Positions 2,281-44,100 of a DNA stretch of 64,000 nucleotides are shown piece by piece; positions within the stretch are counted from its first letter, which is position 1, and each line of letters opens with the position of its first letter. The stretch covers positions 1 to 64,000 of the forward strand of contig JAKLKC010000017.1 in assembly GCA_023150875.1 (NCBI GenBank). Direction: 5' to 3'. A program made the position numbers and the translations under genes. This DNA comes from Myxococcota bacterium. GTDB taxonomy: Bacteria > Myxococcota_A > UBA796 > UBA9615 > JAKLKC01. Below the pieces are notes generated by a model that saw only the letters and a list, made by a program, of their open reading frames with translations, was not told the origin of the DNA and did not search any database.

Positions 2281-2295
2281 GTTGAGGAGGAGGAC

Positions 2296-2508
2296 GTGGA
2301 CTGCGGCCAGCTCTCCCTCGACTACGCCAACGGTTACCTCCAGTACCTGATCCCGGGGGGCTTCATGATGGTGATCGGCGGCACCATCGCCACATCGGGC
2401 GTCATCGCGCTGCTGGTGAGCCTCGGGCGGGACCACGACCGTCGTACGCTCGTCTACCCCCGCATCGGTCCGGGACACATCGGGCTCGGGGTGACCTCGC
2501 GCTTCTGA
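2296..2508 (+). CDS. small single-helix membrane protein, possibly a gene remnant
   Basis: This 70-codon frame has a GTG start preceded by a good ribosome site (GAGGAGGAGG, about 5 bases upstream) and lies 15 bases after the preceding stop, so it could be co-transcribed. It has one hydrophobic segment (about residues 20-43, rich in I, V, L, G) followed by a basic-acidic cluster and a C-terminal Y-P-R-I-G-P-G-H-I-G-L-G-V-T-S-R-F. That ending looks like the last strand of longer exported proteins seen in these bacteria. It may therefore be either a real small protein or the tail of a decayed gene. I recognise no family. Confidence 0.4.
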   Translation: MDCGQLSLDYANGYLQYLIPGGFMMVIGGTIATSGVIALLVSLGRDHDRRTLVYPRIGPGHIGLGVTSRF

Positions 2509-2701
2509 CCCACCCGGGTCCGGGGGACGCCGTCGCGGGGTCCGCAACGCCGCCGTCTCCGACGAGGACTTCGCGGGCCTTGCGAGGGCGGTGGGTGCCT
2601 GCGACGTGCCTCGGCACGCCTCGACGCCCGCGCACCCCCCCTCTACGAACTCATCCCCGCGTCGGGGGCCCCGCGGCGGTTCTCCCGTCGTGATGGTCGC
2701 T

Positions 2702-3685
2702 CTAGGGCCCCGCGGGGTAGGTCCCGTCGTCGACACTCACGACGATGTCCCGTCCGCCCAGGATCGAGGAGAACCTTCCGTCGGCCGAGTTGTAGACACC
2801 GCCGCTCACGGAGGCCCCGTACCCGCTGGCCGAATTCGCCCATCCACCGCAGATCGAGGCCGCCTCCCCCTCGCTCTCGTTCCACTTGCCGCCGCCGACC
2901 CACGCACTGGATCCGATGGCGTCGCTGCTCTCGCCACCGCTCACCGAGGCCGCGGCCCCGCTGGCCTCGTTGTAGCGGCCACCGCTGACCGTCGCCCACT
3001 CGCCGCTGGCGCGGTTGCCGTATCCCGCCACCAGCCCCCCGTGGCTGGTCCAGTCGTGGTAGGGCCCGACCACCAGGTTGTGCGATCCGGTCCGGTCCTC
3101 GTACCCAACGGACTCGGCGTACCCCAGGATCAGGTTGCCCCAACCATTGTCGAGCCCGGTGGCGCCGCGGCCGTTGGTGACGTGGACATTCGCCCCTTCG
3201 AACCCCACCTCGTGCAGCACCGGGTCCACCCACAGGTAGTCCAGGAGGGCCGACAGCGTCGGGCTCACGGCGGCGGCGAAGTCCTGGGCGAGCACCCACG
3301 CCTCGCTGGCGAAACCCTAGGCCTGGACCCACGCCTGGGTCGCCAGGCCCGCCGCCAACAGTCCGTCGACCTCCGCGCGCTGGGCGTCCGCTTCGGCCGA
3401 CGTCCAGGCCAGCTCCGCCTGGGTGCTGACCAGCTCCGCCCGGGTGGTGGCCAGCTCCGTCTGGGCCGCGGCGAGGGACGTCTCCAGGGCCGCGATGGCC
3501 GCCGCCTGCTCGTTCGATTCCTGCGCGAAACAGATCAGCACCGTGCGGAAGGGCATGCCGGGGTCGCAGGCCGCCCGGGCGGCGGGCGCCGAGAGGACCG
3601 CGAGGCAGGCCGCGAAAGCCCCCACCAGGACGGGCGCAGCGCGGCGACGGGACGGGGCGAGCAGCGGGGAACACGGGGCGAGCAT
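2702..3685 (-). pseudogene. coiled-coil / YadA-head-like surface protein interrupted by an in-frame amber codon
   Basis: Start ATG at 3685 follows a GGAG site and a well-spaced promoter. The first 122 codons give a signal peptide (hydrophobic, ending A-R-A around residue 30) and an Ala/Glu/Thr-rich coiled coil. A TAG stop at 3319-3317 then interrupts the same frame, which stays open to 2702. The second part holds about four degenerate 22-24-residue repeats of the type V-S-G-G-x-x-N-x-A-S-G, like YadA-head/Hep_Hag repeats found in trimeric surface proteins. An 11-residue repeat flanks the stop: L-A-T-Q-A-W-V-Q-A-stop-G, then F-A-S-E-A-W-V-L-A-Q-D. The stop aligns with Gln (CAG), so one C-to-T change explains it. 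Either a recent pseudogene or a gene that relies on readthrough. Confidence 0.75.
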
Positions 3686-3737
3686 CGGACTGGCTCCAGG
3701 ACCAGCCCCCCCCCGCGGAGACCATCGGCCGCGCTGA

Positions 3738-3766
3738 ACGGTATCCGCACTCGCGGTCCCGTGCAA
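3738..3766 (-). promoter_or_regulatory. promoter of the interrupted YadA-like gene
   Basis: On the minus strand: -35 TTGCAC at 3766-3761, a spacer of exactly 17 bases, -10 TACCGT at 3743-3738. The predicted start of transcription, near 3731, gives a leader of about 45 bases to the ATG at 3685. The plus-strand promoter on the other side of this gap has the same TACCGT -10 and the same 17-base spacer. Confidence 0.5.
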
Positions 3767-4051
3767 GTAGAGAGCGCGTGCGCCGGACCGCGGACGGCAC
3801 CGCGACCGCGGCGTCCCGACTCGGCGCCCATCGCCTCCCCTCTCGCCCGCGAGGGCTCCCTGCTCCCCGAGGTCCTCGATGAGTTCCTGGGCGTCGAAGT
3901 CCCCTGCGCGCCGCCGACCCACACGGGGCCGCAGCCAGTGGTGAACGTATGCCCGGCGGCGTTCGCGCCGCTGCTGCTGAGCGTGGGGCGGGCCGACGGG
4001 GTGGCGGACCCACCCTCGAAGTCGCCAGTCGGGGCCGGCGTGTCTTCCTTG

Positions 4052-4080
4052 TTGAGTCGCCGCAAGGTACCACGTACCGT
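4052..4080 (+). promoter_or_regulatory. promoter of the FG-GAP lipoprotein gene
   Basis: -35 TTGAGT at 4052-4057, 17-base spacer, -10 TACCGT at 4075-4080, followed about 50 bases later by the ATG at 4138. A perfect inverted repeat (GGTAC, CAC, GTACC; 4066-4078) overlaps the -10 and could be an operator. Confidence 0.5.
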
Positions 4081-4137
4081 GCGGGCACGGGCCGGGCGAC
4101 GTGGACCTGGTCCGGCCCTTCCCCGTGAGGTGTCCGC

Positions 4138-7100: not shown

Positions 7101-10100
7101 GGACTACACGTTCGAGTCCGACGAGGGGGGCGCCGATCTCGGATACTCCGTGTCCGGCGCGGGCGACGTGGACGGGGACGGGTATGGCGACATCATCGCC
7201 GGGGCGCCGTTCGCGGACGGAGCGGAGAGCGCGGTCGGCCGGGTGTACCTGATCCTGGGTGCGGCGGATGGTCCGGCCGCCGCCCCCGACTGGACGGCCG
7301 AGGGAGACGCTGACCATGCGACGATGGGATTGCCGGTGGCGGGAGGCATGGACGCCAACGGCGACGGATACGGCGACGTCGCGGCCGGGATGTACCTCGA
7401 AGGGGTCGGGCCGGACAAGGACGGGTGGATCCGGGCCTGGCTCGGGAACGGGGCCGACGGCACCGGGCCGGGACTCCCGCTGCGCCCCGAGGCGAGGACC
7501 CCGGATGGCCTGGCCCCCATCGCCCCGGGCCTGACATCGTCGTCGCCCAGCTCCTTCATGGCCGCGATGCACTCGGCCCGGCTGCCGGTGGGGGTGGCTC
7601 GGGCACGCCTCCAGGTGGAAGTGAAGCCCATGGGCACGCCCTTCGACGGCTCGGGCCTCGCCGCCACCGGGCCGTTCACCAGCACGGGACTCGGGGGGAT
7701 CGACCTCTCCGAGACCGTCGCGGCCCTGGAGCCCGGCCGCGGCCATCACTGGCGCGCCCGGGTCCAGCGGGACCCCACCCAGGGGGGGCCGGTCCTGTGG
7801 GGCCCCTGGGTGTACGGGGGTGTTCCCGGGGATCCGGCGGGAGGGCACTTCTTCACCTCCGGACCCGCGGCCGCGTGGTACGAGGACGGCGACGGGGACG
7901 GATACGGCGACCCCGCCACGGCGGTCCTCGCCCGAGGCGTTCCCCCGGACGGGCGGATCGCCGACGGATCGGACTGCGACGACGGCGATCCGGAGGTGAA
8001 TCCCGGGGTCGCCGAGGTCACCTGCGACGGGGTGGACACGGACTGCTCGGGCTCCCCGGCCGTCTCCGAGCAGGACCAGGACGGGGACGGGCTCGCCCCG
8101 TGCGTCGGAGACTGCAACGACCAGTCGGCGGCGGTGTACGAGGGCGCCATGGAGCTGTGCGACGACCTCGACAACGACTGCGACGGCGAGGTGGGTCCCG
8201 AGGAGATGGACGGAGACGGTGACGGTTGGACGGAGTGCGGGGGCGACTGCGACGACGCCGATGCGGACTTCTCTCCGGACGCGCCGGAGATCTGCGACGG
8301 CGCGGACCAGGACTGCGACGGGGTCGGGGACGACGTCTCGGACGCCGACCTCGACGGCCACACGGTGTGCGAGGGCGACTGCGACGACGCCAACCGCTTC
8401 GCCAGGCCCGGGGCCCTGGAGCGATGCAACGGCTTCGACGACGACTGCGACGGGGGCGTGGACGAGGGCTTCGACCCGGATGGGGACGGCTTCACCTGTG
8501 GCGAGTCCTGGGACTGCGACCCCCGCGACCCCGCCGTCCATCCGGGCGCCGCCGAGGTCTGCAACGGACTCGACGACGACTGCGACTTCGTCGCGGACGA
8601 GGGGCTGGTCCAGGTGACCTGGTACCTGGACGCGGACGGGGACGGCCACGGCGATCCCACCGTCTCCGAGACCCTGTGCGAGGTGGGGCCGCCCGGGTAC
8701 GTGCTGCTCTCCAACGACTGCGACGACACGGAGCCCCTGGCGTGGATCGGCGCGCCCGAGACCTGCGACGACGGCGTGGACAACGACTGCGACGGCGACC
8801 GCGACGGCTGCGCCTTGGAGGGGGACGTGGGCGTGGCCTCCGCCGACGCCATCCTGGTGGGCGAGGATCCCAACGACAACGCGGGATACGCCGTCGCCCC
8901 CCTCGACGACCTGGACGGGGACGGGTACGCCGACGTCGTCGTCTCGGCCCCCGGTGACGACGGCGCCGGAGCCGATTCCGGGGCGGTCTACGTGTTCTAC
9001 GGCCCCGTCTCGGGGGAGATAGACCTGTCGCTGGCCGACGCGAAGATCGTCGGGGAGGCCAGCGGAGACAAGGCGGGCTGGTCCGTCGCCGGGGGCTCGG
9101 ACACCGACGGGGACGGGTACCTCGACCTCCTGGTGGGCGCCCCCCAGCACGACGCAGGAGGCGCGGACGCGGGCGCGGCCTACCTCGTGCGGGGGCCGTT
9201 CCTGGGCGCGATGTCGCTGTCCACCGCCGCCGCGAAGCTGGTGGGCGAGGACGCCGGAGACAAGGCCGGAGCCGCCGTGGCCCTGATGGACGTGACCGGC
9301 GACGGCGTCGCCGACGCCGTGGTGGGCGCGGCCTTCGACGACGACCGAGGGACCGACGCCGGCGCGGCATACGTGGTCGACGGTCCCCTCGGCGGCACGG
9401 TCGACCTCTCGACGGCGACGGGGAAGCTCCAGGGCCCCGACGCCGGGGACCAGGCGGGATACTCCGTCGCCGTGGTGGGGGACGTGGACGGGGACGGCGT
9501 CACCGACCTGGCCGTCGGCTCCCCCCAGGACGAGCTGGGGGGGACGGCCTCGGGCACCGCGTACATCGTCCGGGGCCCGGTGACCGGCCGGCGTTCCCTG
9601 GGGGTGGTGGCCCTGGCCAGGTTGGTGGGCGAAGAGGCGTCCGACCAGGCTGGCCGGTCCGTCGCCGGTGCTGGAGACCAGGACGGGGACGGCCTCGCCG
9701 ACGTCCTGGTGGGGGCGTACCAGCACGACAGCATCGCCAGCAACGCCGGCGCGGCCTACGTGGTCCTGGCCCCCTTCAGCGGGACCATCGACCTCTCCGT
9801 CGCCGACGCCAAGCGAACGGGAGCGTTGGCGACCGACCTGGCGGGGATCCTCGTGGCCGGCGCCGGAGACGTGGACGGTGACGGGGTCCCGGACCTGCTG
9901 GTCGGAGCCAACCAGAGCGACGCGGGCGGGTCCAATGCCGGAGCGGTGTACCTGCTCTACGGTCCCGTCTCGGGAGTGGCGACCCTGTCCACCGCCGATG
10001 CCCGGTTCGTGGGGGAGGCGGCGAGCGATCAGCTCGGGTACGCCGACGGCGGTTCGGGAGCAGCCGCCGCCGGTGACGTGGACGGCGACGGCTGCACCGA

Positions 10101-10182
10101 CGTCCTGGTCTCCGCCCGCCTGGCCGACCGCGGCGGGTCGAACGCCGGGGCGGCGTACGTCGTCCTGGGGACCTGCTTCTGA
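4138..10182 (+). CDS. giant lipoprotein with three FG-GAP beta-propellers and six MopE repeats
   Basis: 2014 residues. The N-terminus has a signal peptide ending in a lipobox (L-V-L-A-G-C), so it is predicted to be an exported lipoprotein. After about 240 residues come 14 FG-GAP units of the form A-G-D-V-N-G-D-G-Y-x-D-V-V-V-G-A, a fibronectin-like stretch (about residues 1105-1245), six MopE repeats (about 1280-1560) and seven more FG-GAP units to the end. Integrin-type propellers have seven blades, so the counts fit two propellers, then one. Each unit holds an acidic D-x-N-x-D-G calcium loop. Start chosen for the lipobox and the GTGAGGTG ribosome site. Likely role is surface adhesion or scaffolding; no catalytic motif seen. 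Transcription is from the promoter at 4052-4080. Confidence 0.9.
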   Translation: MPPRSLRQVAPLGFLVLAGCADVPGGLSEARPDADGAVGTTAARPEGGRYRPASGSGRVLQGFHPEQGLDVEFGSEGATATPRDGARGRGVPVRLGLRAFQVDDKGPQPGAVAPALAACAAVDGVAPRRICRSRVQYSRPGLTEWWEDRPDGLDHGFTFDPPEGAARATFDLSVRGATPVIQAGSRAAVLDVAGGTDLRYAGLRAWDALGRDLPARMESIAGGIRLAVDIAGAVGEVTVDPLLAVAAWTATGERAGAALGYSVAPAGDVNGDGYGDVIAGAYADSDGESGEGTVYLFLGTPAGLSATPAWTAESDEPGAWSGYSVASAGDVNGDGFSDVVVGAPAYESPLGAVGRVMVYHGGEDGLPEEADWTQDGTQVGGFFGGSVASAGDVNGDGFADLVVGARGMDNGQPDEGMAYVYLGSPMGLSPTAVWSRDGGTAGAAYGHAVSSAGDADGDGYGDLLVGAPGSSFPSPGEGRAYLYLGNPSGLASVAVWVRDGDQAGAAFGSSVAAAGDVDGDGYGDAVVGADGFTGGESSEGRAALYRGGASGLSATPDWTFEGDQAGAGAGASVASAGDVNGDGYADVVVGAPGYADGEAGEGRAWVFLGSAGGLGAAPSASVEPDQAGAGLGICVAGAGDVDGDGVGEVLIGAAGYDSGLADAGAVFLHAGETSSLDDAPAWTGTVGVAGNSFSLSAASAGDVNGDGYDDLVLGSAEYSNGEDNEGWAGVYLGAPEGFGAAPAWEVEGDDANSYLGKSVSGAGDVNGDGYADVVVGQDHGGDRVSGGRVLVFHGSASGLPSTPSWTATGDDYAQLGADVDSAGDVNGDGYGDVVVGATFSSPFGVGPGKAYVYLGSASGLETSPVWEASSGLTESWYGLGVAGAGDVNGDGYADVLVAAFGEDGDLPDQGAAYLYLGSPSGPESTPSWSVRGEGQGDILGLSMGSVGDVNGDGFGDVGVGVPRHSNGQSDEGRIDVHFGSPDGLSPAPDYTFESDEGGADLGYSVSGAGDVDGDGYGDIIAGAPFADGAESAVGRVYLILGAADGPAAAPDWTAEGDADHATMGLPVAGGMDANGDGYGDVAAGMYLEGVGPDKDGWIRAWLGNGADGTGPGLPLRPEARTPDGLAPIAPGLTSSSPSSFMAAMHSARLPVGVARARLQVEVKPMGTPFDGSGLAATGPFTSTGLGGIDLSETVAALEPGRGHHWRARVQRDPTQGGPVLWGPWVYGGVPGDPAGGHFFTSGPAAAWYEDGDGDGYGDPATAVLARGVPPDGRIADGSDCDDGDPEVNPGVAEVTCDGVDTDCSGSPAVSEQDQDGDGLAPCVGDCNDQSAAVYEGAMELCDDLDNDCDGEVGPEEMDGDGDGWTECGGDCDDADADFSPDAPEICDGADQDCDGVGDDVSDADLDGHTVCEGDCDDANRFARPGALERCNGFDDDCDGGVDEGFDPDGDGFTCGESWDCDPRDPAVHPGAAEVCNGLDDDCDFVADEGLVQVTWYLDADGDGHGDPTVSETLCEVGPPGYVLLSNDCDDTEPLAWIGAPETCDDGVDNDCDGDRDGCALEGDVGVASADAILVGEDPNDNAGYAVAPLDDLDGDGYADVVVSAPGDDGAGADSGAVYVFYGPVSGEIDLSLADAKIVGEASGDKAGWSVAGGSDTDGDGYLDLLVGAPQHDAGGADAGAAYLVRGPFLGAMSLSTAAAKLVGEDAGDKAGAAVALMDVTGDGVADAVVGAAFDDDRGTDAGAAYVVDGPLGGTVDLSTATGKLQGPDAGDQAGYSVAVVGDVDGDGVTDLAVGSPQDELGGTASGTAYIVRGPVTGRRSLGVVALARLVGEEASDQAGRSVAGAGDQDGDGLADVLVGAYQHDSIASNAGAAYVVLAPFSGTIDLSVADAKRTGALATDLAGILVAGAGDVDGDGVPDLLVGANQSDAGGSNAGAVYLLYGPVSGVATLSTADARFVGEAASDQLGYADGGSGAAAAGDVDGDGCTDVLVSARLADRGGSNAGAAYVVLGTCF

Positions 10183-10238
10183 CCTCGGTCCCGGCCCCGT
10201 GGGGGATCGCGGCGCCCAGGAGCGGCGAGGCCAGGGGA

Positions 10239-10267
10239 CTGGCACCGGCGGGGAGAGGGGGTAGAGT
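10239..10267 (+). promoter_or_regulatory. probable promoter of the gene at 10315
   Basis: -35 CTGGCA at 10239-10244, 17-base spacer, -10 TAGAGT at 10262-10267. It precedes the GGGAGGGAGGAGC ribosome site and the ATG at 10315. The form matches other promoters in the window. Confidence 0.35.
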
Positions 10268-10314
10268 TCGGGGCGACCATGGGCCCGCCGGCCGCCGGCG
10301 GGGAGGGAGGAGCG

Positions 10315-11010
10315 ATGCCCATGACCACCCGCCCCTGCAGCCACGACGAGCGCGACCAGATCGCGGGCGCGATGGACCGCTACCTCGCGCGGCCCGACGC
10401 CGATCCCCGGATCCGGGAGCTGGACGCCGACTTCTTCGCCGAGGCCCGGAGGGCGTTCCAGGCCGCACGGGAGTTCGAGCGGACGGCCCACTCCGCGTGG
10501 GAGGCCGCCGGCGAGGTCGCGGACGCCCGGGACGCCCAGTTCGAGCGGGACCTGTTCCTGCTCGCCGCCACCGTCCTGGACGCCCGGGGCGCCCCGCAGC
10601 CCGACCGGGTGGCGGAGATGCTCGGAGGGGTGCCGCCCACGGCGCTGGCGCGCCACACCTACCGCGAGGCCATCGCCCGCTCCGGGGACCTCCTGCGGGG
10701 CCTCGCCGCCCGCGGAGACCTCGCCTTCGACCCCGAGAAGGCCCGGGCCCTGGGGGCCAGCCGAGAGGTCCTGCTCGCCGGCGCCGTGGTGGAGGAGGAG
10801 GCCGACTCCGCCCGCCGCTCCGCCAGGGCGGCGCTGGACGAGGCGGCATCGACCTTCGACCGCTCCTGGGGCAAGGCCGTCCGGGCCATCCAGGCCGCCG
10901 TCGAAGAGAGCGTCTGGACCCCCGCGATCCCCCGCTTCGTCCGAGGCGCCGCCCCCGGCACACCCGTCCCCGAGCCCACCCCTGCCCGCAGCGGAGCCGG
11001 CCCCGTCTGA
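10315..11010 (+). CDS. uncharacterised helical cytoplasmic protein
   Basis: 231 residues, no signal peptide or membrane segment. ATG 10315 is chosen over an in-frame ATG at 10279 because a strong GGAGGGAGGAG site stands just before it. The sequence is rich in Ala, Arg, Glu and Asp with long stretches of amphipathic helix (A-R-R-A-F-Q-A-A-R-E-F-E-R and similar) and a Pro-rich tail of about 20 residues. I recognise no family. The next gene, a Nudix hydrolase, starts 110 bases downstream on the same strand, so the two may be co-transcribed, but this gives no clear hint of function. Confidence 0.7.
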   Translation: MPMTTRPCSHDERDQIAGAMDRYLARPDADPRIRELDADFFAEARRAFQAAREFERTAHSAWEAAGEVADARDAQFERDLFLLAATVLDARGAPQPDRVAEMLGGVPPTALARHTYREAIARSGDLLRGLAARGDLAFDPEKARALGASREVLLAGAVVEEEADSARRSARAALDEAASTFDRSWGKAVRAIQAAVEESVWTPAIPRFVRGAAPGTPVPEPTPARSGAGPV

Positions 11011-20054: not shown

Positions 20055-23050
20055 CCGACGTCCACGACCCCCAGATCTGCTACGGCTGCCGCGAGCCGGT
20101 CCCCGAGGGGGAGGCCTCCTGCCCCGCCTGCGGCGCCCGTCCCGCCAGCGGCACCCGCTTCCCCCGGGACCGGTGGGGGGGCCGCGAGGTGGAGCTGGAC
20201 GACCGGAGGGTCCGGCTGGGGCGCCCGATGGGCATCGGGGCGTTCGGCGCGGTCTACCCCGTGGAGGGAGGCCCGGAGGAGTGGGTGGGCACGGTGCTGA
20301 AGGTCCTCCACTCCTTCGCCGAGCGGCCCCCCGCCGCCCAGGCGATGGCCCGGCGCCGCTTCGAGCAGGAGGCGCGGATCCTGATGCGCCTCGGCTCCCA
20401 CCCGAACCTGATCCGGTGCCACGGCCACGGGATCCTGCACGACGGGACGCCCTGGATCGCCATGGACCGCGCCGTCGGACTCAACCTGGCGGTCTACCTG
20501 CGGGAGCGGGGGGCCCCGCCGGCCCCGCTGGCCCTGGAGCTGGCGCGGCAGCTCGCCGCGGCCATGGCGTTCGTCGGGGACGCCGAGGTGGTGGGGCGGG
20601 ACTACAAGCCGGACAACGTGGTGGTGCGGGGCCTCGACGGGGGCGAGCCGCCCCACCTGACGGTGCTGGACTTCGGGGCGGCCCGGTACCTCTACGGGCC
20701 GGGCCTGGGCACGGTGGACGGGGGCATGGTGGGCACCCTGCCCTACGCCCCGCCGGAGCAGATGACCGACGCCACGTCGGCGGACCTGCGCTCGGACGTG
20801 TTCGCGTACGGGACCATCGTCTACGAGCTGCTGACGGGCCGCCGGCTGTTCGGCCAGAGGGGCTTCGGCGCCTGCCTCGCCGCCAAGACGGAGGCCGCCC
20901 GGCCGGAGATCTCCATCCCCGGCGAGCCGGCGGCCGGACGGATGGCGACGGGGCTGATCACCGCCTGCACCGCGCCGCGGCCCGACGACCGGCCCCCGGA
21001 CCTCCACCGGGTCGGCGAGGCGGTGGCGGGGGTGATCGCGCTGCTGCGCGCCCCCGCCCGCGCCGCGGGGCGCGCGTCGCCCCGGGCGGCGACGTCGGCC
21101 TGGCCGACGGGATCGCCGCGGGTGGCGCGGCTCGGCCCCAACGCCACCCTGGTCCCCGCGCCGGCCCAGGAGGTGCCCGCGCCCGCGCCCGCCGCGCCCT
21201 TCCTGCCCACGGCCGCCGACGCGGCGGCGGAGGTGCCCGAGCCGACTGCCGTGCCCGCGGACGCCTGGAGCGGACCGGCGGGGGGCCCCCAGCCCTCGGA
21301 CGGCGACGGTCCCGACCGGACCGGCGGGGCACTGGCCCCCGGCGCGGAGGGGTGGGGCGGGACCGAAGTGGCCGGGCCGCCGGTCCCCAAGCCCGTCGGC
21401 GCCGAGGCCGCTGGGGCCGCGGAGGCCGGCCTGGAGCCGGCTCCGGGCCTGGCGGCGGACCCGGACGCCACCGTGATCTCCGATGGAAGGCCGGAGGCGA
21501 GGGCCACGGTCGGGGCCGGTCCCGGGACGGGGCACGGGGCGCCGGCCTTCCTGGGCACCGCCATCCCCGCCGGGGGGTGGGCCACTCCGGAGGCGGCGCC
21601 GCGAGAGCCTCCCGGCCCGGCACCCGCGGCGGCCGTCGGAGCGCAGGAAGACGGCCCGCGGGGCGGTCCCCGGCTCCCCGGAGGGGACCCCGCCCGCAAG
21701 CCTGCGCCTGGGCTCCTGGCCGGAGAGCCGGAGCCCCTGGACCGCGCGGTGATGGTGGGCCTGGCCCTGGTGACGTTCGCGTGCCTGATGATCACGGCGG
21801 GGGTCCAGGTCATCCGGGCCTACGGGCCCGACGTGGCGGGGGAGATCCGCCGAGACCTGGGAGAGGTCCGGCGGGCCTGGGTCGCCGCCGTGGAGGCCGC
21901 CCGGGAAGCCGCGGAGCCCCGGATCGCCCCCGCGGCGCCCCCGGCGCCCCATTCCCCGAATGATCGGCACGGCGGTCCCGGCCGGTTCCAGGGGGAGGCG
22001 GAGTGGTGGGTCACCGCTGCCAACGGGCCCCGGGAGCCCTCCGCGGAGGGTCCGGGCGTCGCGACCGGCTCCGAGCCCTCCCCCCACCGGGAGAGGACGG
22101 CGGTGAAGTCGGGCGTCCCCGCGAGGGCCACCCCGAGCCCGCGGGGGCGGGAGGTCAAGGACGCCCCCCGCCCGCGCTTCCCGCGGCTGGACCCTCCCCC
22201 CGCCCAGGACTCGGGCTGGACGGCGTGGGAGGCCGCCCTGCGCGGGGCGGACGCCGCCGGCTCGGACCCCTCCCACCCCGGCGGTGCCCCGGAGGAGCCC
22301 CGGGCAGGAGGCGCCGTCCTGGCTCCCCCCGCCGGCCCCCGAAGGGTGGCGACGTCCAGCATCGCCGGCGCCCGGGTGTGGTTCGGCCCCGCCACAGCGG
22401 AGTCCCTGGCACGGTGCCGGTCCCTCCTCGGTCCGGCGGCTTGCGAGGACCGCTCCGGGCCTCCCCTCGGCTGGATCCAGATCGACGCCTTCCGGCTGGA
22501 CCGGGTGGAGGTGAGTCGGGAGCGCTACCTGGACTGCGTCGCCGCGGGCCGGTGCGGGGAGCCCCGGGGCGGCCTCGGTTCCGGCCGCGGCGACCTGCCG
22601 GTGACGGGAGTGAGCCCGGAGCAAGCGGCGACCTTCTGCCGATCGGTGGGGGGAAGGCTCCCGACGTGGGTGGAGTGGGAGGCCGCCGCCTCGTGGGGGC
22701 CGGGGTTCGACGCGCCCGCGGACCGGAGGTTCCTCCCCTTCGTCGGCGCGCCGGACTGTGATCGAGCCCGGCTCCTGGGCTGCGGCAGCGGTCCCGGCCC
22801 GGTGAGCGCTCGCCCCCGGAGCGCGAGCGCCTGGGGAGTGCGGGACCTGCTGGGCAACGTCGCCGAGTGGGTGATCGGCCCCACCCACTACGAGCTGCGG
22901 GGCGGGAGCTGGCTCACCCCCGCCGCCTCCCTGACCGCGCTGCGCCCCCGCCACCCCGCCCGGAGCGGCGAGGTCCCCGCCGACGCCGGGTTCCGGTGCG
23001 CGATGCCCGCCGCCGGCGCGGCCGGCGGCGAGGTGGTGACGGCGCGCTGA
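20051..23050 (+). CDS. zinc-ribbon Ser/Thr protein kinase with TM helix and SUMF1-like C-terminal domain
   Basis: 999 residues. A zinc ribbon comes first (C-Y-G-C at 10-13, C-P-A-C at 24-27). Then a Hanks-type kinase: glycine loop G61-I-G-A-F-G66, Lys84, Glu107, G-R-D-Y-K-P-D-N with Asp184/Lys186/Asn189 (Gly replaces the usual His of HRD), D-F-G at 207-209 and A-P-P-E-Q-M. A long Pro/Ala/Gly linker leads to one TM helix at about 566-588. After another linker comes a formylglycine-generating-enzyme-like (SUMF1/FGE-sulfatase) fold at about 767-990, with G-N-V-A-E-W-V, R-G-G-S-W and G-F-R-C-A. The kinase would face the cytoplasm and the SUMF1 domain the outside, as in a transmembrane sensor. Whether the latter is catalytic or only binds ligand is unknown. 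Confidence 0.92.
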   Translation: MTDVHDPQICYGCREPVPEGEASCPACGARPASGTRFPRDRWGGREVELDDRRVRLGRPMGIGAFGAVYPVEGGPEEWVGTVLKVLHSFAERPPAAQAMARRRFEQEARILMRLGSHPNLIRCHGHGILHDGTPWIAMDRAVGLNLAVYLRERGAPPAPLALELARQLAAAMAFVGDAEVVGRDYKPDNVVVRGLDGGEPPHLTVLDFGAARYLYGPGLGTVDGGMVGTLPYAPPEQMTDATSADLRSDVFAYGTIVYELLTGRRLFGQRGFGACLAAKTEAARPEISIPGEPAAGRMATGLITACTAPRPDDRPPDLHRVGEAVAGVIALLRAPARAAGRASPRAATSAWPTGSPRVARLGPNATLVPAPAQEVPAPAPAAPFLPTAADAAAEVPEPTAVPADAWSGPAGGPQPSDGDGPDRTGGALAPGAEGWGGTEVAGPPVPKPVGAEAAGAAEAGLEPAPGLAADPDATVISDGRPEARATVGAGPGTGHGAPAFLGTAIPAGGWATPEAAPREPPGPAPAAAVGAQEDGPRGGPRLPGGDPARKPAPGLLAGEPEPLDRAVMVGLALVTFACLMITAGVQVIRAYGPDVAGEIRRDLGEVRRAWVAAVEAAREAAEPRIAPAAPPAPHSPNDRHGGPGRFQGEAEWWVTAANGPREPSAEGPGVATGSEPSPHRERTAVKSGVPARATPSPRGREVKDAPRPRFPRLDPPPAQDSGWTAWEAALRGADAAGSDPSHPGGAPEEPRAGGAVLAPPAGPRRVATSSIAGARVWFGPATAESLARCRSLLGPAACEDRSGPPLGWIQIDAFRLDRVEVSRERYLDCVAAGRCGEPRGGLGSGRGDLPVTGVSPEQAATFCRSVGGRLPTWVEWEAAASWGPGFDAPADRRFLPFVGAPDCDRARLLGCGSGPGPVSARPRSASAWGVRDLLGNVAEWVIGPTHYELRGGSWLTPAASLTALRPRHPARSGEVPADAGFRCAMPAAGAAGGEVVTAR

Positions 23051-41100: not shown

Positions 41101-44100
41101 GTCGTCGCAGTCCCCGCCGTTCTCGGTGTAGCCGTCGCCGTCCCCGTCTCCGTCCGCCGTGCCCTCCTCGACGAGGCCGTCGCAGTCGTCGTCGATGCCG
41201 TTGCCGGCGACCTCGGGGGCGCCGGGGTGGACCGCGGGATCGGTGTCGAGGCAGTCCCCGCCGCCGACGATGGTCGCGGCGTACCCGTCGGCGTCGACGT
41301 CCACCAGGTCGGTGCCGGAGCAGTCCTGGTCGATGCCGTCGTAGGGGATCTCCGGGGCGCCGGGGTAGATCGTGGCGACGGAGTCGTTGCAGTCGGTGTA
41401 GTCCAGCACGTAGCCCGCGGGCGCGCCGTCGCAGGTGGTCACCGTCTCCCAGGGGTTGCCGAAGCCGTCCCCGTCGGCGTCCCGCTGGTAGTTCGTGTAG
41501 ACCAGCGCCTCGTCCACCAGGCCGTCGCAGTCCTGGTCGATCCCGTCGCACAGCTCCGCGGCCCCGGGGTACCGGGTGGCGTCGGCGTCGGTGCAGTCGC
41601 CGCCGCACTCCGTGATTCCGTCCCCGTCGTGGTCGGTCTCCAGCGGATCCGAGAGGCCGTTGCAGTCGTTGTCCACCACCCCGTCGCAGATGTCGGCGGC
41701 CCCGGGGTGCACGTCGGGATCGGCGTCGTCGCAGTCGTCGTCGTCGGGATCGTAGCCCGGGGGCGCCCCGTCGCAGGTGGACACCGAGATCGAGGTGTCG
41801 CCCCATCCGTCCAGGTCGGCGTCGTAGTACCAGGTGATGTAGACGAGCCCCTCGTCGGCGACCCCGTCGCAGTCCTGGTCGATGCCGTCGCAGACCTCCC
41901 CCGCGCCGGGGTGGAGGGTGGGATCGGCGTCGTCGCAGTCGCCGGCACAGGGGGTGTAGCCGTCGGCGTCGGCGTCGAGCCCCTCGTCCACCGCGAGGTC
42001 GCAGTCGTCGTCCACGCCGTTGCACACCTCCGGCGCGCCGGGGTGGACGGTGGGGTTCAGGTCGTCGCAGTCCCCGGCGCACGAGGTCACGCCGTCGCCG
42101 TCGTGGTCGAAGCCGTTGTCGACGGTCCCGTCGCAGTCCTCGTCCACGCCGTCACACGCCTCGATCCGGGCGGGGTTGATGGTGGGATCGGCGTCGTCGC
42201 AGTCCCCCTCGCAGGTCGTCCAACCGTCGGAGTCCACGTCGAACCCGTCGTCCGCCACCCCGTCGCAGTCGTCGTCCACGCCGTTGCACGCCTCGGACGC
42301 TCCGGGGAAGGCGGCGGCGTTGGCGTCGTCACAGTCCCCCTCGCAGGTCGTGAAGCCATCCCCGTCCGTGTCGTACCCCTCGTCGGAGGCGCCGTCGCAG
42401 TCGTCGTCGATCCCGTTGCACGCCTCGGCCGCCCCCGGGTGCACCGCGGCGTCGGTGTCGGCGCAGTCCCCTTCGCAGGTCGTCCACCCGTCGAAGTCCG
42501 TGTCGAAGCCCTCGTCCACGACGCCGTCGCAGTCCTCGTCGACGAAGTCGCACGTCTCCATCGCCCCGGGGTGCACGGCGGCGTTCCCGTCGTCGCAGTC
42601 GCCGGCGCAGGTGGTGATCCCGTCGCCGTCGGCGTCGTGGCCCTCGTCCACGGCGCCGTCGCAGTCGTCGTCCATCCCATTGCACGCCTCGGCCGCCGCC
42701 GGGTTGACCGTGGGTCGGGTGTCGTCGCAGTCCCCCGCGCAGGTCGTGTATCCGTCGGCGTCGCCGTCGAAGCCGTCGTCCACGACGCCGTCGCAGTCCT
42801 GGTCGACCCCGTCGCAGACTTCGGTGGCCCCCGGGTGCGCGGCGGGATCGGCGTCGTCGCAGTCCCCCTCGCAGGTGGTGTATCCGTCGCCGTCCAGGTC
42901 GAAGCCGTCGTCGGCGGCGCCGTCGCAGTCGTCGTCGATCCCGTTGCACGCCTCGGCGGCGCCGGGGTTCACGAAGGCGTTGCCGTCGTCGCAGTCCCCC
43001 TCGCAGGTGGTGTACCCGTCGCCGTCGGCGTCGTAGGTCTCGTCGGTGGATCCGTCGCAGTCGTCGTCGATCCCGTTGCACGCCTCGGCGGCGCCGGGGT
43101 TCACCCCGATGGCGGCGTCGTCGCAATCCCCCTCGCAGGTGGTCCAGGTGTCGCCGTCGGCGTCGAAGCCCTCGTCGGTGGCCAGGTCGCAGTCGTCGTC
43201 GATCCCGTTGCACGTCTCGGTGGCCCCGGGGTTCACGCCAGGGGCCAGGTCGTCGCAGTCGCCGGCGCAGGTGGTGTAGCCGTCACCGTCCACGTCGAAG
43301 CCGTCGTCCACCACCCCGTCGCAGTCGTCGTCCACCCCGTTGCACAGGTCGGTGGCGGAGGGACTCACCCCCGGGGCGGCGTCGTCGCAGTCCCCCTCGC
43401 ACGTCGTCCAGCCGTCGCCGTCCAGGTCGAAGCCGTCGTCCACGACGCCGTCGCAGTCCTGGTCGATCCCGTCGCAGGTCTCGGCCGCGCCGGGGTGGAT
43501 CCCCGCGGCGCCGTCGTCGCAGTCCCCGGCGCAGACGGTGTAGCCGTCCCCGTCCAGGTCGAAGCCGTCGTCCACCACCCCGTCGCAGTCGTCGTCCAGG
43601 GCGTTGCACGTCTCGGGGGCGGCGGGGTTCACGGTGCCGCGGGTGTCGTCGCAGTCCCCCTCGCAGGTGGTCCAGCCGTCCCCGTCGGCGTCGAAGCCGT
43701 CGTCCACCACCCCGTCGCAGTCCTGGTCCACGTCGTCGCAGAGCTCGGTGGCCCCGGGGTAGACGCCGGGCTCGGCGTCGTCGCAGTCGCCCTGACACAC
43801 GCTGTACCCGTCGCCGTCGGCGTCGAAGCCGTCGTCGATGGTGCCGTCGCAGTCGTCGTCCACCCCGTTGCAGGTCTCGATCACCCCGGGGTTGACGAAG
43901 GGGTTGCCGTCGTTGCAGTCCCCCTGGCACACGGTGTACCCGTCGAGGTCGGCGTCGTAGCTCTCGTCGGTGGAGCCGTCGCAGTCGTCGTCGATCCCGT
44001 TGCACGCCTCGGTGGCGCCGGGGTTCACCCCGATGGCCGCGTCGTCGCAGTCCCCCTCGCAGGTGGTCCAGGTGTCGCCGTCCAGGTCGTAGCCCTCGTC

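Follow-up and report, generated by a model that had tools for sequence, protein, structure and literature searches.

In the window, the whole 64,000-nucleotide stretch of DNA that was analysed, one member of a small family of secreted-type head-repeat proteins is interrupted by a single in-frame TAG, and we regard it as probably either a young nonsense pseudogene or a nonsense allele that segregates in the population sampled. The gene occupies 3685-2702 on the reverse strand, where an ATG (3685-3683) is followed by 122 sense codons, the interrupting TAG (3319-3317), a further 204 sense codons and a second TAG (2704-2702). The features discussed below are as follows.

3320..3685, reverse strand: pre-stop coding part (122 codons), placed by alignment to the paralogue on contig C128
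3317..3319, reverse strand: in-frame TAG at the conserved Gln of a W-V-x-x-Q motif, from the sequence and alignment
2705..3316, reverse strand: post-stop coding part (204 codons), from a UspA1 match, the paralogue alignment and codon log-odds
2704-2702, reverse strand: natural end TAG, from the sequence
3293..3304, reverse strand: possible restart, inferred from GAGG (3304-3301), a 5-nt spacer and GTG (3295-3293)
3706..3714, reverse strand: run of nine G, a possible length-variable tract, 20 nt upstream of the ATG

An in-frame TAG at a conserved glutamine

The pre-stop part consists of a signal-peptide-like N-terminus and a coiled-coil-like stretch, both recognized by eye, and the first copy of a tandem ATQAWV repeat. 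The post-stop part continues with the second repeat copy, a conserved pre-head segment, β-roll head repeats of the UspA1/YadA type and a C-terminal TYPAGP. In the first of the two 11-residue repeats (LATQAWVQA*GF and FASEAWVLAQDF; in context, LATQAWVQA*GFASEAWVLAQDFA), the stop stands where the motif W-V-x-x-Q-[G/D]-F has its Gln, and the matching codon of the second copy is CAG. The description in an earlier note on this DNA, a single amber codon at a Gln position inside an 11-residue repeat, is thus exact in its coordinates and is borne out both by the second copy and by the C128 paralogue. Only three C>T/G>A nonsense routes are available in the present gene, CAG>TAG among them, with eight such CAG codons and ten TGG codons.

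Apart from the gene itself, a search of the genome with the post-stop part recovered two loci: a copy on contig C128 and, on contig C105, a short match. The C128 paralogue (9300-10388, reverse strand; 362 aa) is open throughout and approximately 60% identical to the interrupted gene at the protein level. Its alignment extends from the signal peptide to the C-terminal TYPAGP, crosses the stop and places a Gln (CAG) opposite the TAG, and the paralogue likewise carries the tandem repeat twice (LATQAWVSAQGF and FATQAWVLAQDF). Because an intact paralogue can be aligned through the stop, with Gln at that position and the same end, we consider it settled, at the level of sequence homology, that the interrupted gene was once one continuous gene. 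The in-frame stop therefore lies inside a region homologous on both sides to an intact gene, as expected of a nonsense pseudogene, and the proposal that one CAG to TAG nonsense substitution struck a conserved Gln codon is backed by this same-genome paralogue together with the tandem repeat. When motif copies were counted with a pattern that leaves the residue free (non-overlapping matches), Gln was found in 5/5 copies, from 4 of the 30 loci examined; a later motif list required Gln or a stop at this position and is not independent of that count. Similar pre-head motifs occur in L007, L027 and L028, which belong to other genomes of the phylum.

The C105 copy (L006, genome positions about 41990-42760) is internally shortened, with the start of the coil joined to one or two head repeats, and contains one in-frame TAA. 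The C128 paralogue ends in TYPAGP followed by a stop, and the C105 remnant in TYPDGP followed by a stop. The C105 copy sits a few hundred bases downstream of genes for tRNA-Gln(CUG) and tRNA-Glu(CUC).

Within the phylum, tentatively Myxococcota or a neighboring one to judge by the nearby MopE and FG-GAP genes, the family is patchy, with a match in 48 of the 282 sampled genomes. Broken copies are not rare: by hand count, stops occur in 7 of about 114 family match rows. One of these, L020 (G165:C9), belongs to another genome, and its in-frame TAG comes soon after a conserved GYN, a different place from that of the stop in the window. By eye, many relatives begin with a signal or lipoprotein-like N-terminus, followed by a coiled-coil-like segment that precedes the head. 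The genus consists of a single genome, that of the window itself; a scan of genome contigs yielded two distant relatives only, and a search of a plasmid collection found none.

A UspA1-type head without a YadA anchor

Against solved heads, the post-stop part matches that of Moraxella UspA1 (PDB 3pr7, E 6.2e-19) and, less strongly, 3ntn (E 2.3e-05). The Pfam model UspA1_rep scores 16.3 bits, below its cut-off of 27, and no NCBIfam model reaches its cut-off on this part. Modeling the structure of the post-stop part by itself gave a mean pLDDT of 34, and the model was not used. The YadA anchor, PF03895, has no match in the whole genome, whereas the E. coli control was found. The earlier label of a YadA-like protein thus holds for the head but not for the anchor, and since no such anchor occurs anywhere in the genome, the predicted product cannot strictly be called a trimeric autotransporter. 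It resembles the YadA-family trimeric autotransporter adhesins in its head repeats and coiled-coil-like segment, but it has no C-terminal YadA anchor and its coil lies before the head, not behind it. With Moraxella catarrhalis UspA1 (3pr7) it has β-roll head repeats in common, although the gene here encodes no membrane anchor and the two organisms are unrelated.

UAG as an ordinary stop

Amber suppression had been offered as one way in which the gene might still be expressed, with a suppressor tRNA to be sought in the genome. Release factor RF1 is present in the assembly (516.5 bits), no tRNA with a CUA anticodon is among the 42 tRNA matches in the draft genome, and pyrrolysine synthetase (PylS) was not found in the assembly. 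The draft does not contain a full tRNA set, as Glu-UUC, Gln-UUG, Ile-GAU and Ala-UGC are also not seen, and the missing CUA tRNA is thus no final proof. ARAGORN reports a "tRNA-???" with a two-base anticodon at 22659-22749 (forward strand); Rfam places no RNA there or anywhere else in the window, the genome-wide tRNA list has none on C88, and we rejected this call as probably false.

TAG is also in regular use as a terminator. With a crude ORF sampler (GC-position rules, a length limit of 100 codons, 394,075 bases including the window), we observe 152 TGA, 47 TAG and no TAA among 199 ORF ends, the absence of TAA being unsurprising at 72.8% GC. A coding-like in-frame continuation follows 12 of 46 TAG-ended ORFs versus 11 of 152 TGA-ended ones, a difference that at first favored genome-wide amber readthrough. 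We rejected this idea because three of five other TAG sites tested split unrelated genes, with different families on the two sides (HlyD/AcrB, GspD/GspE and Omp85/HYDIN-Ig); at the remaining two (MopE/MopE and TPR/TPR), Pfam places the same repeat family on both sides. At four of the five, the stop forms part of a TAGGAG, so that it overlaps an RBS-like sequence of the next in-frame gene. Given RF1, the lack of a CUA tRNA and PylS among the genes seen, and the three of five TAG sites that split unrelated families, we conclude that UAG serves this genome as an ordinary stop and that any readthrough here would be low-level leakage; the suggestion of amber suppression is not supported.

The reading frame after the stop

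The earlier note had also emphasized that the frame stays open with its full repeat structure. The frame is indeed open for 204 codons, but at 72.8% GC this carries little weight, since dinucleotide shuffling of the 612 post-stop bases also leaves the frame open in 44 of 2000 cases and 2 of the 5 remaining frames over the same DNA contain no stop. We therefore do not use the open frame as evidence by itself, and where GC reaches 73%, an amber codon followed by an open frame is no evidence of recoding. The codon usage of the post-stop part has a log-odds of +129 bits, and the coding signal resumes directly after the TAG (28 bits over 30 codons, rank 5 of 198).

Age of the interruption

We saw no second lesion in the interrupted gene. 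GC3 after the stop is 0.907 versus 0.934 in the C128 paralogue, and the GC contents of the three codon positions are 0.65/0.57/0.91 in the post-stop part versus 0.65/0.54/0.93 in the paralogue. With a transition/transversion weight of 3, one expects approximately 29 new nonsense changes for each unit of neutral distance, so the lack of a second nonsense codon sets a 95% upper neutral distance of approximately 0.10 substitutions per site (0.07 with AT-biased mutation), which is a loose limit. Between the paralogues, pN/pS is 0.57 before the stop and 0.61 after it, with 0.47 over the first 105 post-stop codons; these values reflect mostly the time before the stop arose. The absence of a second lesion and the retained GC3 speak in favor of the recent loss claimed earlier. 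A recent loss is plausible, and the age is only weakly bounded, no further than "no second lesion yet."

Alternative explanations

Most likely the explanation is an ordinary one, namely one nonsense allele in the gene of a dispensable secreted protein that exists in several copies, the allele being fixed, segregating or an assembly variant. The last of these would mean that the draft fixed one read variant, either through an artefact of consensus or assembly or from a minority allele, and that the gene of the organism is intact. The assembly is a draft of 180 contigs and 6.9 Mb, the lesion is one substitution with no other beside it, and paralogous repeats could mis-recruit reads; however, the aligned C128 codon is not TAG, so cross-mapping from C128 cannot supply the stop, and that paralogue is just approximately 60% identical in protein sequence. 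We consider an artefact unlikely. Low-level or regulated readthrough, yielding a little full-length protein from a tolerated or regulatory "leaky" stop, would fit the immediate return of frame and codon bias described above. Belinky et al. (2021, PMC7918605) describe in-frame stops as widespread among bacterial genes, with dN/dS below 1, and read many of them as not being pseudogenes; as in our gene, where the frame is intact but for a TAG in place of a conserved CAG, their worked example pairs TAG with CAG. Their stops differ from ours, which is known from one genome alone, with no orthologous stop known in another; together with the release factor, tRNA and PylS results and the division of unrelated genes by three of five tested TAGs, this makes readthrough very unlikely. 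Should the stop nevertheless prove to be maintained and translated through, it would bear on the discussion of leaky in-frame stops in bacterial genes.

The sequence just behind the stop could also suggest gene fission, with the head made separately by a restart at GTG 3295, which lies 21 nt downstream of the TAG and five bases behind a GAGG. The resulting 197-aa head fragment, however, would have neither signal peptide nor coiled coil, and among the 24 relatives with a bounded frame, the head stands directly behind a stop in the broken L020 only; we judge fission to be extremely unlikely. The perfect retention of frame, codon bias and both repeats after the stop speaks against a pseudogene, and it would be expected of a tolerated or read-through stop or of an assembly error also.

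On the nonsense-allele reading, which we favor, translation would end at the TAG and leave a 122-codon exported coil without a head, and the intact C128 paralogue would make this loss tolerable. The family would then be a small, fast-turning-over and secreted one, whose members combine a signal peptide, a coiled-coil stalk and a UspA1/YadA-type β-roll head with no membrane anchor. The presence in a single genome of an intact, an interrupted and a degraded copy would be in keeping with gene birth and death, and the three copies provide an example of the decay of a multi-copy surface-protein family.

The upstream region and neighboring sequence

That the promoter is intact, as previously stated, is unsupported, being neither shown nor refuted: a scan for sigma-70-like sites, the one promoter type considered, returned none in 2500-4137. 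The 300 bases upstream of the gene share only short, chance-level matches with the leader of the C128 paralogue. The run of nine G is unusually placed. G/C runs of at least nine number 9 in the 394,075 sampled bases versus roughly 60 in base shuffles, and are thus rarer than chance. No such run is present in the 60 nt upstream of the C128 paralogue. Two of the 24 relatives with bounded frames carry long runs: in L018, one of nine stands shortly ahead of the first ATG, and in L007, one of eight C lies further upstream; with a run of nine near the first ATG in 1 of 24, we rejected the tract as a conserved feature of the family.

Phase-like variation in the population had been proposed as another reading of the stop. 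Point substitution is not the usual mechanism of phase variation. A G(n) tract 29 bp upstream of Moraxella uspA1, whose length alters expression, and nonsense mutations in the uspA1 of one strain, 25239, are described in one report (PMC7302503), and the combination of upstream tract and nonsense mutation resembles our gene, a likeness noticed post hoc. In Moraxella, the tract is described there as changing in length, whereas the G9 here is known from one sequence alone. By analogy, a surface gene with a UspA1-like head might be kept switchable in this environmental bacterium, with G9 tuning transcription as in Moraxella uspA1 and stop alleles coming and going by point mutation among copies under selection by predators or phages; we hold this scenario to be extremely unlikely.

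Elsewhere in the window, a 75-codon frame (2281-2508, forward strand) directly follows the TAG of a MopE-repeat gene (19-2280) in the same frame. No NCBIfam model matches this frame, and it carries GAGGAGGAG shortly before a GTG (2296).
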